Source: Eggerthella lenta DSM 2243
Lineage (GTDB): Bacteria > Actinomycetota > Coriobacteriia > Coriobacteriales > Eggerthellaceae
Direction: 5' to 3'
DNA: 64,000 nucleotides
NCBI RefSeq assembly: GCF_000024265.1
Contig: NC_013204.1
Span: 62,001 to 126,000 of the forward strand
A model generated the notes under the pieces. It was not told the origin of the DNA, made no database searches, and worked only from the letters and a program-made list of their open reading frames with translations. Below are positions 3,993-52,423 of the stretch, piece after piece. The position numbers and the translations under genes are program-made. Within the stretch, counting starts at the first letter, position 1. Every line of letters starts with the position of its first letter.

Positions 3993-4008
3993 TGTTTCAC
4001 GTGAAGCA
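3993..4008. promoter_or_regulatory. parS-like palindrome, one mismatch
   Basis: The site reads TGTTTCACGTGAAGCA, one base (A to G) away from the perfect palindrome found 14 times elsewhere. Its flanks extend the symmetry (CGGA on the left, TCCG on the right). It lies between the dual-sensor GGDEF gene and tRNA-Phe. The mismatch may weaken ParB binding. Confidence 0.6.
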
Positions 4009-7149: not shown

Positions 7150-7165
7150 TGTTTCACGTGAAACA
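7150..7165. promoter_or_regulatory. parS palindrome
   Basis: A perfect TGTTTCACGTGAAACA, 210 bp upstream of the sigma factor start. No gene or other motif is recognised between 7166 and the sigma factor ribosome-binding site at 7355. Confidence 0.8.
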
Positions 7166-9773: not shown

Positions 9774-9812
9774 CTTGTACGCTATCATGGATGCTCGAGC
9801 GAAAAAGCCGGA

Positions 9813-9828
9813 TGTTTCACGTGAAACA
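9813..9828. promoter_or_regulatory. parS palindrome upstream of iorA
   Basis: A perfect TGTTTCACGTGAAACA, 29 bp before the chosen iorA start. It overlaps where a promoter or leader would lie, so ParB bound here could affect iorAB expression. Confidence 0.8.
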
Positions 9829-9856: not shown

Positions 9857-12064
9857 ATGACGAAGAAACTGCTGATGGGGAACGAGGCGTTCGCGCATGC
9901 GGCGTTGGAGGCCGGGGTGCGCGTGGTGGCGGGCTACCCGGGCACGCCGTCGTCCGAGCTGATCGAGACGGTGGCGAAGCTGCATGCCGACGGCGCCGCG
10001 CGCGGCATCCACGTGGAGTGGTCGACGAACGAGAAGTCGGCCTTGGAGCTGCTGGCGGGCGCGTCGTACACGGGCGCGCGCTGCCTGTTCACCTGCAAGC
10101 AGGTGGGGCTCAACGTTGCCAGCGACGCGCTGATGAGCTTGAACTACGTGGGCGTGAAGGGCGGCATGGTGCTGTTCGTGGCCGACGATCCCGGTCCCAT
10201 CTCGTCGCAGACCGAGCAGGACACGCGCCGCTTCGCCAGCTTCGCGAAGCTGCCGGTGCTCGATCCCGCCACGCCCGACCAGGGCTTCGACATGATGCAG
10301 GCCGCATTCGACCTGTCCGAGCGCTACCATACGCCCGTCATCGTGCGTCCCACCACGCGCATCAACCACGCCTCGACGTTCTTCGACGTCGCGGACGCCA
10401 CCGACGCGCGCCCGGTGCCCGACGAGGGCTTCGAGCGCAACCCGAAGTGGGTCATCTTCCCGCGCCGCGCCTACCAGGCGCACGGCGAGATCAACGAGCG
10501 TTTGGCGGCCATCGCGCACGATTTCGCCGTCGATCCCGCGCTGGCCGCGTTCAACCCGATGGTCGAGGGCGGCGCGCAGTCGACCGAGGATGTACGAACG
10601 AATGTTTCACGTGAAACATTCGACGACGGGAGCATGCCGAAGACGGCGACGAGTGCGGGCGCCAAGGCGGTGGGGATCGGCGCGGGCGTGTTGGAGTCCG
10701 CATCTGCCGCAGTCGCGCCGCGCCTCGGCATCGTAGCGGGTGGCGTGTCGGCCGCCTATGCGCGCGAGGCGCTGCGCATGGTGGAAGCGCGCGCGGCGGC
10801 AGCGGGCGTGGAAATGCCCGCATACCGGTTCTGGCAGGTGGGAACGCCCTACCCGTTCCCGGAGGAGCTGGCCGCGACGTTCGCGGAAGGCCTCGACGAA
10901 GTGCTCGTTCTGGAAGAGCTCGACCATGTGCTGGAGGATGCGCTGCTCGTGCACGCGGGTCGCACGCATGCGTCCTACGAAGTGCGCGGCCGCCTGACCG
11001 GCGACACGCGCGATCGTGGCGAGAACGACGTGGACGATTGCGCCGCCCGCATCGCGCTCTTCCTCGGTATCCCGCAGGTGCTCGCCCCCGCAGCGGGCGC
11101 CCCTGCGTCGCCGACCGCCGCATCGGCCGCTTCCGCGTCCGCGACGTCCTCTATTCCGGTTGCCGAAACTGGAACGAATGTTTCACGTGAAACATTCGCC
11201 TACGATGCGCCTGCCGACGCGCCGCTGCCCGTGCGCCCGCCCGTGCTTTGCGCGGGCTGCCCCCATCGCGGCAGCTTCTACGCGGTGAAGCGCGCGCTGG
11301 GGAAGACGCCCGCCGTGCTGTGCGGCGACATCGGCTGCTACACGCTGGGCAACGCGATGCCGCTGGACGCCGTGGACACCTGCCTGTGCATGGGCGCGGG
11401 CATCACGATGGCGCAGGGCTTCGCCGTGGCCGAGCCGCACAAGAAGACGCTGGCGTTCGTGGGCGACTCCACGTTCTTCGCCAGCGGGCTGCCTGGCCTG
11501 GTGAACGCTGTGTACAACGGCCACGACATCACCGTGTGCGTGCTGGACAACGCCACCACGGCCATGACCGGCTCGCAGCCGCATCCCGGCACCGGCGTCA
11601 CGCTCATGGGGCCGAAGCGCCAACCCATCTCCATCCCGCGCGTGTTGGAGGCCGTCGGCTTCGACTGCATCGTGCATGCGAATCCGCTCGACCTCGATGC
11701 TTCGGTGGCGGCCGTGCGCGAGGCGCTCGACCATGAAGGCCCCAGCGCCGTCCTGTTCGAGTCGCCGTGCATCCAGCTGGTGAAGCCGGACGCGCCCGCC
11801 GTCGTGGATGCCGAAACGTGCACGGGCTGCAAGAAGTGCATCACCGAGATCGGCTGTCCCGGCATCGGCTTCGACGCCGACGCGCGCGGCCCGCGCAGCA
11901 AGCAGCGTGGCCAGGCGTTCGTCGACCCCAGCCTCTGCAACGGTTGCGGCCTATGCGTCCAAGTGTGCCCCTTCGATGCGCTGTCGATGACGGAACCCCA
12001 AACAGATGTTTCACGTGAAACATCTTCGGACGCTTCTGGGTCGGAAGGAGGCTGCCATGCGTAA
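9857..12064 (+). CDS. iorA: Indolepyruvate:ferredoxin oxidoreductase, alpha subunit
   Basis: IorA with IorB oxidatively decarboxylates aryl pyruvates (from Trp, Phe, Tyr) to aryl-acetyl-CoA, reducing ferredoxin. The 735-aa protein shows the pyrimidine-binding half at the N-terminus (GYPGTPSSELIE), a TPP-binding half with CAGCPHRGSFYAV and GDIGCYTLG (about residue 490), and two C-terminal [4Fe-4S] motifs (CTGCKKC and CNGCGLCVQVCP). The ATG at 9857 has GAGG upstream and starts at the conserved MTKKLLMGNEA. Three perfect parS palindromes lie in frame: two encode NVSRETF within Ala/Ser/Thr-rich linkers (about residues 249-256 and 441-448), and one encodes DVSRETS at the C-terminus. These linkers look like insertions between conserved domains. 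The gene overlaps iorB by 8 nt. Confidence 0.95.
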   Translation: MTKKLLMGNEAFAHAALEAGVRVVAGYPGTPSSELIETVAKLHADGAARGIHVEWSTNEKSALELLAGASYTGARCLFTCKQVGLNVASDALMSLNYVGVKGGMVLFVADDPGPISSQTEQDTRRFASFAKLPVLDPATPDQGFDMMQAAFDLSERYHTPVIVRPTTRINHASTFFDVADATDARPVPDEGFERNPKWVIFPRRAYQAHGEINERLAAIAHDFAVDPALAAFNPMVEGGAQSTEDVRTNVSRETFDDGSMPKTATSAGAKAVGIGAGVLESASAAVAPRLGIVAGGVSAAYAREALRMVEARAAAAGVEMPAYRFWQVGTPYPFPEELAATFAEGLDEVLVLEELDHVLEDALLVHAGRTHASYEVRGRLTGDTRDRGENDVDDCAARIALFLGIPQVLAPAAGAPASPTAASAASASATSSIPVAETGTNVSRETFAYDAPADAPLPVRPPVLCAGCPHRGSFYAVKRALGKTPAVLCGDIGCYTLGNAMPLDAVDTCLCMGAGITMAQGFAVAEPHKKTLAFVGDSTFFASGLPGLVNAVYNGHDITVCVLDNATTAMTGSQPHPGTGVTLMGPKRQPISIPRVLEAVGFDCIVHANPLDLDASVAAVREALDHEGPSAVLFESPCIQLVKPDAPAVVDAETCTGCKKCITEIGCPGIGFDADARGPRSKQRGQAFVDPSLCNGCGLCVQVCPFDALSMTEPQTDVSRETSSDASGSEGGCHA
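10603..10618. promoter_or_regulatory. parS palindrome inside iorA (first)
   Basis: A perfect 16-bp site in the iorA frame, translated as NVSRETF. The symmetry extends outward through CGAA and TTCG. Confidence 0.8.
11179..11194. promoter_or_regulatory. parS palindrome inside iorA (second)
   Basis: A perfect 16-bp site in the same reading phase as the first, again NVSRETF, directly after a low-complexity Ala/Ser/Thr linker and just before the TPP domain. Confidence 0.8.
12007..12022. promoter_or_regulatory. parS palindrome at the iorA 3' end
   Basis: A perfect site translated as DVSRETS in the C-terminal tail of IorA. It ends 22 bp before the iorB ribosome-binding site. Confidence 0.8.
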
Positions 12065-12653
12065 CGTGTTGCTTTCGGGCGTAGGCGGACAGGGCACCGT
12101 GCTGGCGGCGAAGGTGCTGGCCCAGGCCGCGCAGGACAAGGGTTGGCAAGTGCGCACGGCCGAGACTATCGGCATGGCGCAGCGCGGCGGCAACGTGGTG
12201 TCGCACGTGCGCATGGGCGACGCGGGCGAGGAGGTGTTCGCCCCGCTGCTGGCCGAGGGCACGGCCGACCTCGTCATCGCGTTCGAGCCGGCCGAGGCCG
12301 CCCGCGTGCTGCCGTTCCTCGCGCCCGACGGGCTGCTGGTCACGGCCACTACAGCCATCCAGCCGGTCACGGCGGCGCTGTCCGACAAGCCCTATCGCGC
12401 CGACAACGTGCTGGCGAGCATCGAGCGATCGCTGGCGGGCACCGGCGCGCGCTTCGTCGCGGTGGACGATGTCGCGCTTACCGACGCGGTGGGCAGCCGC
12501 AAGGTGTTGAACTCGGTGCTGCTGGCCAGCGCTCTCAAGGAGGGCCGCATCGCGCTCGACCTCGACGACCTGCGACGCGCCCTCGAGGAGTGCGTGAAGC
12601 CGCGCTTCGTCGCCCTCAACCTGGCCGCCGTCGACGCGGTGGCTGCGCGATAA
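12057..12653 (+). CDS. iorB: Indolepyruvate:ferredoxin oxidoreductase, beta subunit
   Basis: This 198-aa protein begins MRNVLLSGVGGQG, the typical start of the gamma-type domain of 2-oxoacid:ferredoxin oxidoreductases. TAETIGMAQRGGNVVSHVRMG and the SVLLASAL region are also typical. It completes the IorAB heterodimer. The start at 12057 lies 8 nt inside iorA behind GGAAGGAGG, so the subunits are made together. An upstream in-frame ATG would begin within the parS site (MFHVKH...), which is an artefact of the palindrome. A perfect heptamer tandem array follows right after the stop. Confidence 0.93.
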   Translation: MRNVLLSGVGGQGTVLAAKVLAQAAQDKGWQVRTAETIGMAQRGGNVVSHVRMGDAGEEVFAPLLAEGTADLVIAFEPAEAARVLPFLAPDGLLVTATTAIQPVTAALSDKPYRADNVLASIERSLAGTGARFVAVDDVALTDAVGSRKVLNSVLLASALKEGRIALDLDDLRRALEECVKPRFVALNLAAVDAVAAR

Positions 12654-12660
12654 TCTTCGC

Positions 12661-12730
12661 GCCCCGCGCCCCGCGCCCCGCGCCCCGCGCCCCGCGCCCC
12701 GCGCCCCGCGCCCCGCGCCCCGCGCCCCGC
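12661..12730. repeat. Heptamer tandem repeat, 10 perfect copies
   Basis: Ten uninterrupted copies of GCCCCGC follow the iorB stop, framed by partial units. It is a simple-sequence array likely to vary in copy number by slippage. It cannot form a normal terminator hairpin, because one strand is almost pure C runs with single Gs. Confidence 0.95.
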
Positions 12731-12800
12731 GCGCGGTTAGTTGGGGAAGGCTCCTTGCGCGTTCGGGGTCGCCATCGTCTTTAAGCACCGCCCCCTGATG

Positions 12801-27819: not shown

Positions 27820-27835
27820 TGTTCCACGTGAAACA
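27820..27835. promoter_or_regulatory. parS variant
   Basis: TGTTCCACGTGAAACA differs from the common site by one base (T to C at position 5), at a position that also varies in the known bacterial parS consensus. It lies 34 bp from the next site, the closest pair in the window. Confidence 0.75.
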
Positions 27836-27868: not shown

Positions 27869-27884
27869 TGTTTCACGTGAAACA
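27869..27884. promoter_or_regulatory. parS palindrome upstream of the SSS transporter
   Basis: A perfect site 92 bp before the transporter start. It is the first perfect copy to the right of the parS-free stretch that contains the Wadjet island. Confidence 0.8.
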
Positions 27885-30051: not shown

Positions 30052-30067
30052 TGTTTCACGTGAAACA
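30052..30067. promoter_or_regulatory. parS palindrome
   Basis: A perfect site flanked by CGGG and CCCG, 78 bp beyond the right arm of REPIN-like element 2. The symmetry extends with different flanks from the CGAA-type sites. Confidence 0.8.
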
Positions 30068-33624: not shown

Positions 33625-33640
33625 TGTTTCACGTGAAACA
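33625..33640. promoter_or_regulatory. parS palindrome upstream of the FAD reductase
   Basis: A perfect site with flanks TACGGA and TCCGTA, so the symmetry is about 28 bp, the longest of the set. It lies 158 bp before the reductase start. Confidence 0.8.
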
Positions 33641-35490: not shown

Positions 35491-35506
35491 TGTTTCACGT
35501 GAAACA
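35491..35506. promoter_or_regulatory. parS palindrome between convergent genes
   Basis: A perfect site with CGAA/TTCG flanks, between the ends of two convergent genes and so away from any promoter. Confidence 0.8.
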
Positions 35507-37111: not shown

Positions 37112-37127
37112 TGTTTCACGTGAAACA
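37112..37127. promoter_or_regulatory. parS palindrome upstream of the LuxR-type gene
   Basis: A perfect site 90 bp before the LuxR-type start, in the position of its promoter region. One of a pair 72 bp apart in the 317-bp gap 37023-37339, which holds nothing else recognised. Confidence 0.8.
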
Positions 37128-37183: not shown

Positions 37184-37199
37184 TGTTTCACGTGAAACA
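37184..37199. promoter_or_regulatory. parS palindrome (second of a pair)
   Basis: A perfect site with CGAA/TTCG flanks, 140 bp from the end of the folate gene. Confidence 0.8.
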
Positions 37200-42217: not shown

Positions 42218-42233
42218 TGTTTCACGTGAAACA
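42218..42233. promoter_or_regulatory. parS palindrome
   Basis: A perfect site, 114 bp upstream of the Asn-rich lipoprotein gene. The nearest other copies are 5 kb left and 9.7 kb right. Confidence 0.8.
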
Positions 42234-51917: not shown

Positions 51918-51933
51918 TGTTTCACGTGAAACA
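51918..51933. promoter_or_regulatory. parS palindrome after citrate synthase
   Basis: A perfect site, 89 bp past the citrate synthase stop and just before a hairpin (51966-51991). Confidence 0.8.
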
Positions 51934-52407: not shown

Positions 52408-52423
52408 TGTTTCACGTGAAACA
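52408..52423. promoter_or_regulatory. parS palindrome (rightmost in window)
   Basis: A perfect site with CGAA/TTCG flanks. No further copy is found in the remaining 11.5 kb. The 51829-52513 gap contains only this, a second parS, the hairpin and REPIN-like element 5. Confidence 0.8.

Follow-up and report, generated by a model that had tools for sequence, protein, structure and literature searches.

Introduction

Chromosomal ParABS systems with arrays of parS sites of the TGTTTCACGTGAAACA type are the closest described relatives of the sequences reported here. In the excerpts of the literature at hand, the number of parS sites per genome is given as one to 20 (PMC10197239) or as up to 20-23 (PMC7333895), and 24 are listed for Myxococcus xanthus (PMC3778016). 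Location within coding sequence has precedents as well, since the available parts of two reports place nine of the ten predicted sites of Pseudomonas aeruginosa (PMC4368675) and one of the ten of Corynebacterium glutamicum (PMC7083940) inside genes. The part consulted of a 2020 review (PMC7333895) poses as an open question the causes of clustering and of the variation in parS number, given that a single site is often enough. No report on the parS number in Eggerthella or Coriobacteria was among the matches listed in a literature collection that covers few subscription papers, and the portion consulted of PMC4255298, which names ParB and Eggerthella, holds nothing on this number.

Here we describe approximately 130 parS sites in the Eggerthella lenta chromosome, a number several-fold above those that these partial sources give for other bacteria. 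They are probably genuine ParB-loading sites of an expanded array, and the copies within coding sequence probably persist where the encoded peptide is disordered.

Results

A dense array of parS sites

The window, the 64-kb stretch of E. lenta DNA that was analyzed (positions 62001-126000 of one 3,632,260-bp contig), contains 14 perfect and two one-mismatch copies of TGTTTCACGTGAAACA. Shuffled sequence gave a mean of 0.02 copies with up to two mismatches, which excludes a chance origin. Apart from the four copies at the iorA gene, which are listed further below, the sites are as follows; the perfect copies were found by exact match and are intergenic with respect to predicted genes.

3993..4008, + strand: parS-like sequence with one mismatch (sequence scan)
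7150..7165, no strand: perfect parS, intergenic
27869..27884, no strand: perfect parS, intergenic, with a one-mismatch copy at 27820
30052..30067, no strand: perfect parS, intergenic
33625..33640, no strand: perfect parS, intergenic
35491..35506, no strand: perfect parS, intergenic
37112..37127, no strand: perfect parS, intergenic
37184..37199, no strand: perfect parS, intergenic
42218..42233, no strand: perfect parS, intergenic
51918..51933, no strand: perfect parS, intergenic
52408..52423, no strand: perfect parS, intergenic

The whole contig holds 130 perfect sites, and none was present in the reversed control. All match the 16-mer consensus exactly and they are clustered by parB and by position 1, which was taken as the origin. 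Their density declines with distance from position 1, from 85 per 100 kb over the first 10 kb to about 1 per 100 kb at more than 800 kb, a gradient computed from the 123 of 130 positions that were placed; the other seven lie between 2.93 and 3.23 Mb and are missing from the 400-800 kb bins. The genome has a single HTH_ParB gene, located some 6 kb away from position 1. The cognate ParB that it encodes carries ParB_N and HTH_ParB domains and is similar in sequence to solved ParB/Spo0J proteins.

Gene context was examined for 116 of the 130 sites, those in arms of 449 and 400 kb beside position 1 and in 19 further stretches, with genes called by an in-house hexamer predictor. Ninety-seven sites were intergenic, 18 were in predicted genes and one was partly so. 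In the two arms, 72 of 87 sites were intergenic although 86.6% of the DNA is predicted to be coding. Three antisense open reading frames (at sites 5491 and 46999, and one touching 1844003) were judged by the author to be false on their composition, and the site at 71813 (9813 in the window) was counted as in-gene because the predictor started iorA upstream of its conserved start.

Closely spaced pairs of sites occur at 640497 and 668181 of the contig (G000:C1), 35 bp apart within a 93% repeat of about 290 bp, and elsewhere in the genome with spacings of 34-36 and 48 bp. Additional dyad arms of 10-12 bp were seen at five sites, four between convergent genes (3628387, 3559064, 3623352 and 3625432) and one between divergent genes (372119). 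Terminator hairpins were rejected as a general rule; the mean arm was alike for all gene orientations (2.4-3.0) and was 2.1 in genes.

Distribution among genomes

The 138 Eggerthellaceae genomes searched, some of them incomplete, contain 0 to 148 perfect sites, with at least 20 in 28 genomes and over 100 in ten. The numbers were 0 to 4 in 184 other Coriobacteriia and at most 21 in 381 Actinomycetota outside Eggerthellaceae, an even draw of the phylum. The 130 sites of E. lenta (G000) compare with 148 in its sister species (G052), 103 in G062, 126 in Enterorhabdus sp. P55, 78 in Gordonibacter pamelaeae and 48 in Enteroscipio rubneri; Paraeggerthella hongkongensis has nine, Adlercreutzia mucosicola two, and 17 others searched 0 to 9. 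The HTH region of ParB is nearly identical in parS-rich and parS-poor genomes. An altered ParB specificity was rejected as an explanation, as a single alignment column (V/I) separates the 18 parS-rich from the 12 parS-poor ParB proteins under the author's cut between the two groups. In the same set (L237-L266, own trimming), several parS-poor ParB proteins appear longer before ParB_N, with up to 433 amino acids compared with 338-378 in the rich genomes.

In-frame sites in iorA

The features of the iorA region are listed here.

9783..9788, + strand: TATCAT, a -10-like hexamer before the leader parS, candidate promoter element only (sequence reading)
9813..9828, no strand: perfect leader parS, separated by 28 bp from the iorA start codon (exact match)
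9857..12064, + strand: iorA, indolepyruvate ferredoxin oxidoreductase alpha subunit, 735 aa (POR_N, TPP_enzyme_C, 4Fe-4S)
10603..10618, no strand: perfect parS in iorA linker 1, residues 250-254, VSRET (exact match and AlphaFold2 disorder)
11179..11194, no strand: perfect parS in iorA linker 2, residues 442-446, VSRET (exact match and AlphaFold2 disorder)
12007..12022, no strand: perfect parS in the iorA tail, residues 718-722, VSRET (exact match and AlphaFold2 disorder)
12057..12653, + strand: iorB, POR-domain subunit, overlapping the iorA end by 8 bases (domain match; start picked by eye)

The product was assigned to IorA by its POR_N, TPP_enzyme_C and 4Fe-4S domains and by the adjoining iorB. 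Immediately 3' of iorB, at 12658-12732, CGCGCCC is repeated perfectly in tandem (10.7 copies). A preliminary description of this DNA had located three perfect parS copies inside the iorA reading frame and a fourth outside the gene, four in 2.2 kb, and had read the inner three in one phase as NVSRETF, NVSRETF and DVSRETS. All of this was reproduced: the quartet measures 2.21 kb end to end, and the inner sites encode TNVSRETFD, TNVSRETFA and TDVSRETSS. A shared phase is by itself weak evidence, because the palindrome is interrupted by TGA in one frame, which leaves just the VSRET and FHVK frames open and gives three sites a one-in-four chance of agreement. The VSRET frame, which is hydrophilic, was used by all 24 in-gene sites (19 exact and five with one mismatch) among the iorA copies examined, although these are not 24 independent events since the copies are related. 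The FHVK frame is hydrophobic and supplies an ATG.

The same description had placed two of the sites in interdomain linkers and the third in the tail, and the AlphaFold2 model of IorA, computed with 35 aligned IorA proteins (mean pLDDT 78.4), agrees. Seven segments have a pLDDT below 50, and three of them (246-283, 413-466 and 715-735) contain the VSRET peptides at 250-254, 442-446 and 718-722. Judging from this model, parS in such floppy stretches is likely to do little harm to the protein.

A leader parS upstream of iorA was found in 14 genomes (13 exact, one with one mismatch), and in nine of them TATCAT occurs within 30 bases before it. In the IorA tree, in-gene parS is limited to one clade (support 0.954), where 13 of the 14 members have it; ten genomes outside this clade have at least 20 parS each and not one in iorA. 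The tree mixes genera, and therefore iorA has probably been exchanged between lineages; the pairing of Enteroscipio G061 with Eggerthella G054, and of G065 with the genus g1, suggests exchange between genera. In the eight clade members measured, iorA and parB are 65-146 kb apart. The iorA linkers are richer in parS than their length would suggest (24 sites in 14 genomes, one clade). That iorA is a frequent host at all is probably explained by its location near the origin together with its richness in linkers.

Linker length and the presence of parS

The preliminary description had also proposed that the protein made room for the sites. An IorA alignment was used to see whether the linkers exist only where parS is present. 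Forty genomes were picked by hand, not at random, and 38 were fetched, with G109 (split over contigs) and G130 (weaker match) omitted. Together with the window copy this gave 39 loci, and 38 rows after G017 was dropped, its frame not having been recovered; the starts of G047 and G051 were left untrimmed. The part outside linkers and tail measures 592 aa in 21 of the 38 rows, and linkers plus tail range from 35 to 384 aa. Long linkers are found in parS-free orthologs of Eggerthellaceae (linkers 1 and 2 of 62 and 84 aa in G001, 59 and 42 in G071, 31 and 69 in G133) and in the Clostridia Cellulosilyticum (L150, 39 and 45 aa) and Lachnospiraceae (L159, 39 and 66 aa). The linkers of L209 measure 52 and 15 aa. 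No parS within two mismatches was present at the L150, L159 and L209 loci, and a one-mismatch parS-like site lies inside the iorA match of L144. Conversely, parS is carried by second linkers of only 20 (G020), 21 (G062) and 24 aa (G064). Whether a copy carries an exact site made no significant difference to its total linker length (medians 118 aa with and 87 aa without, n = 10 and 28, p = 0.40). These parS-free orthologs are the very case named beforehand as refuting the proposal, which is unsupported for the family as a whole.

Some observations agree with the proposal. Within genus g1, the species of the window has linkers of 54 and 54 aa with sites, in comparison with 8-18 and 21-22 aa in three congeners that lack both, so that the long linkers and their two parS sites are gained or lost jointly. 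Exact sites in linker 1 are confined to linkers of at least 51 aa. Total linkers had a median of 114 aa in genomes with at least 15 sites versus 59.5 aa in the others (p = 0.011, among related species). These points favor the claim within genus g1 and for linker 1; across the family it lacks support, and the answer is mostly that the protein did not make room for parS. The tail site is also present in these three g1 congeners, exact in two and with a synonymous mismatch in one.

Other genes carrying parS

Plausible genes hold 15 sites, not counting the iorA leader site and those in two open reading frames judged false: three each in iorA and hypF, one each in hypD, parB and a helicase gene (domains RNase_T, DEAD and Helicase_C_2), two each in a PhnH gene and an NTPase_1 gene, and two at start codons. 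We take the helicase to be DinG-like, and the two genes with parS at the start codon are presumably RlmN-like and PaaK-like. VSRET is the reading of ten of the 15 sites. The other five give FHVK, two as MFHVK at the start and the internal ones in the PhnH and NTPase_1 genes. Most are in linkers or termini. By Pfam boundaries, the HypF sites fall at residue 232, before Sua5, and at residue 491, between Sua5 and HypF_C; the third, at residue 738, is within the HypF_C_2 match and belongs to a part of the protein missing from the sister species. The sites in HypD, ParB, the helicase and PhnH are between or outside Pfam domains. At 193969-198157 of the contig, hypF has its three in-frame VSRET sites and hypD one near the start, and all four are missing from G052. 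In-gene sites of parB read VSRET in eight of eight cases (30 genomes). G052 was surveyed over 400 kb, where 40 of 45 sites were intergenic. Of the five others, three were internal and read VSRET and two were starts reading (M/V)FHVKH.

Conservation of the DNA sequence

Among 262,381 predicted residues the pentapeptide VSRET was counted 13 times, once in an antisense frame judged false, compared with 0.23 expected by composition; the other 119 orderings of the same residues average 0.23, with a largest value of 2. The exact parS 15-mer encodes ten of the 13 and a sequence one base off encodes three. Of the five sites with one mismatch in iorA copies, two carry a synonymous change and three a non-synonymous one, which indicates that the peptide is not the thing guarded. 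The F-D-D codons that follow the site vary synonymously among G000, G062 and G066, and the 16 bp, compared by eye, are identical; this synonymous-site comparison is between species, with one genome per species.

Conservation was assessed against G052 for 67 sites located in 300 kb to the right and 100 kb to the left of position 1. Twenty-nine were alignable; 24 were exact, three had one difference and two were gapped, and the median flank identity at the 24 exact sites was 0.735. Where flank identity was below 0.85, 17 of 21 sites were exact, compared with 6.7% (flank identity 0.50-0.65), 5.5% (0.65-0.75) and 12.0% (0.75-0.85) of control 16-mers, all of which were intergenic while some of the aligned sites are genic. 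Above 0.85, the figures were seven of eight sites and 29 and 78% of controls. Thus, among the 29 of 67 sites alignable with G052, parS is conserved beyond the surrounding DNA. Many sites turn over, as the matching G052 stretches hold 45 sites versus 67. The earlier suggestion that a coding gene is under selection for a function of its DNA gains support from the exactness of the codons, the non-synonymous mismatches and the comparison with controls. From these sequence comparisons, selection looks to be acting on the DNA and not on the peptide.

Discussion

Several other explanations were considered for the recurrence of these sites. That VSRET is selected as a protein motif would account for its 13 occurrences in predicted proteins, but this reading was rejected on codon use, VSRET being encoded only by parS or its one-base neighbors; with three of five iorA mismatches altering the peptide, and the neighboring F-D-D codons, unlike the 16 bp, differing synonymously, we consider it extremely improbable. 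Equally concerned with the protein is the proposal that the IorA linkers arose or lengthened as landing places for parS. It draws on the joint occurrence of long linkers and both linker sites in genus g1, on the length of the linkers that hold exact linker-1 sites, and on the longer linkers of parS-rich, related species. The long parS-free linkers of parS-poor Eggerthellaceae and Clostridia, the sites in linkers of 20-24 aa and the lack of a significant length difference according to whether a copy has an exact site make it very unlikely. A regulatory cluster, in which ParB loaded at the leader and inner sites would tune iorAB transcription, could explain the recurrent leader site with TATCAT nearby, but sites of the same form are scattered genome-wide and in-gene sites are missing from the ten parS-rich genomes that fall outside a single IorA clade, and we give this idea an equally slim chance.

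The sites might also be a small dispersed repeat spread passively or by an unknown mobilizer, ParB binding being incidental. The sequence TYYGTTCG extends one side of 51 of the 116 sites and both sides of two, and ParB recognition would not predict such a one-sided flank. A polarity of this flank was rejected: on the right arm it was found to the left of 23 sites and to the right of 21, and on the left arm to the left of six and to the right of one. At +1 to +3, the two palindrome arms match more often than independence would give (116 sites), and the pairs at 34-36 and 48 bp and the repeat at 640 and 668 kb would fit such spread as well. Nonetheless, this origin is unlikely, given the density gradient from position 1, the conservation of sites in G052 and, less clearly, the manner in which sites are absent. 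When seven iorA and hypF-hypD sites were compared with G052, whole linker blocks or ragged gaps were missing where the site was absent, and not clean unit-length insertions. Spread of the REP/RAYT kind was rejected: the Y1 transposase (PF01797), found in 16 of the 29 genomes searched, was not found in G000, G052 and G062, which have 130, 148 and 103 sites.

We favor the reading that these are ParB-loading sites of an expanded array. Selection for ParB/SMC loading around the origin would have filled the chromosome with parS in several Eggerthellaceae lineages, most densely near the origin, and we infer that ParB binds these copies, that clamps are loaded and SMC recruited there, and that many copies are of benefit. 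Most copies would be intergenic because the 16-mer usually damages a protein, and coding copies would survive where the peptide is a disordered linker or terminus. The VSRET frame would be mostly used because, of the two others, one contains TGA and one encodes the hydrophobic FHVK and supplies an ATG. The gene iorA would be a favored host by being near the origin and having three long unconstrained linkers, which would not have been made for the sites.

More tentatively, and with somewhat less than even odds in our estimate, over 100 ParB-loading sites graded from the origin may form a distributed centromere that replaces a few-site one in several Eggerthellaceae lineages, with selection so strong that the 16 bp stay exact even within coding genes and VSRET is thereby written into linkers of IorA, HypF, ParB and other proteins. 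If so, segregation and SMC loading would proceed from a broad domain rather than a point. The range of 0 to 148 sites per genome with a near-constant ParB HTH amounts to a natural experiment on parS number. The in-gene sites also illustrate cleanly how a function of the DNA can take precedence over codon choice, at places where the lack of protein structure makes this tolerable.

Comparison with known systems

The window's IorA is like known IorA in domain content and in having iorB as neighbor; it differs in its linkers and tail, 137 aa in total compared with about 30 in compact Bacillota IorA such as L163 and L198. REP/RAYT palindromes resemble the sites described here in being short palindromes with many intergenic copies, but here no Y1 transposase was found in the richest genomes searched and the copies follow a gradient from the origin side. 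The array shares with chromosomal ParABS systems the TGTTTCACGTGAAACA 16-mer, the crowding near position 1 and parB and the single HTH ParB, and differs in its 130 copies, and up to 148 in a congener, in comparison with the highest numbers of 20-24 in the sources consulted. As in P. aeruginosa and C. glutamicum, some E. lenta sites are within coding sequence, although most are intergenic. Compared with what the available parts of the reports on those two species describe, E. lenta is distinguished by three perfect sites per gene, in one frame and in disordered linkers, an arrangement that occurs twice, in IorA and in HypF.
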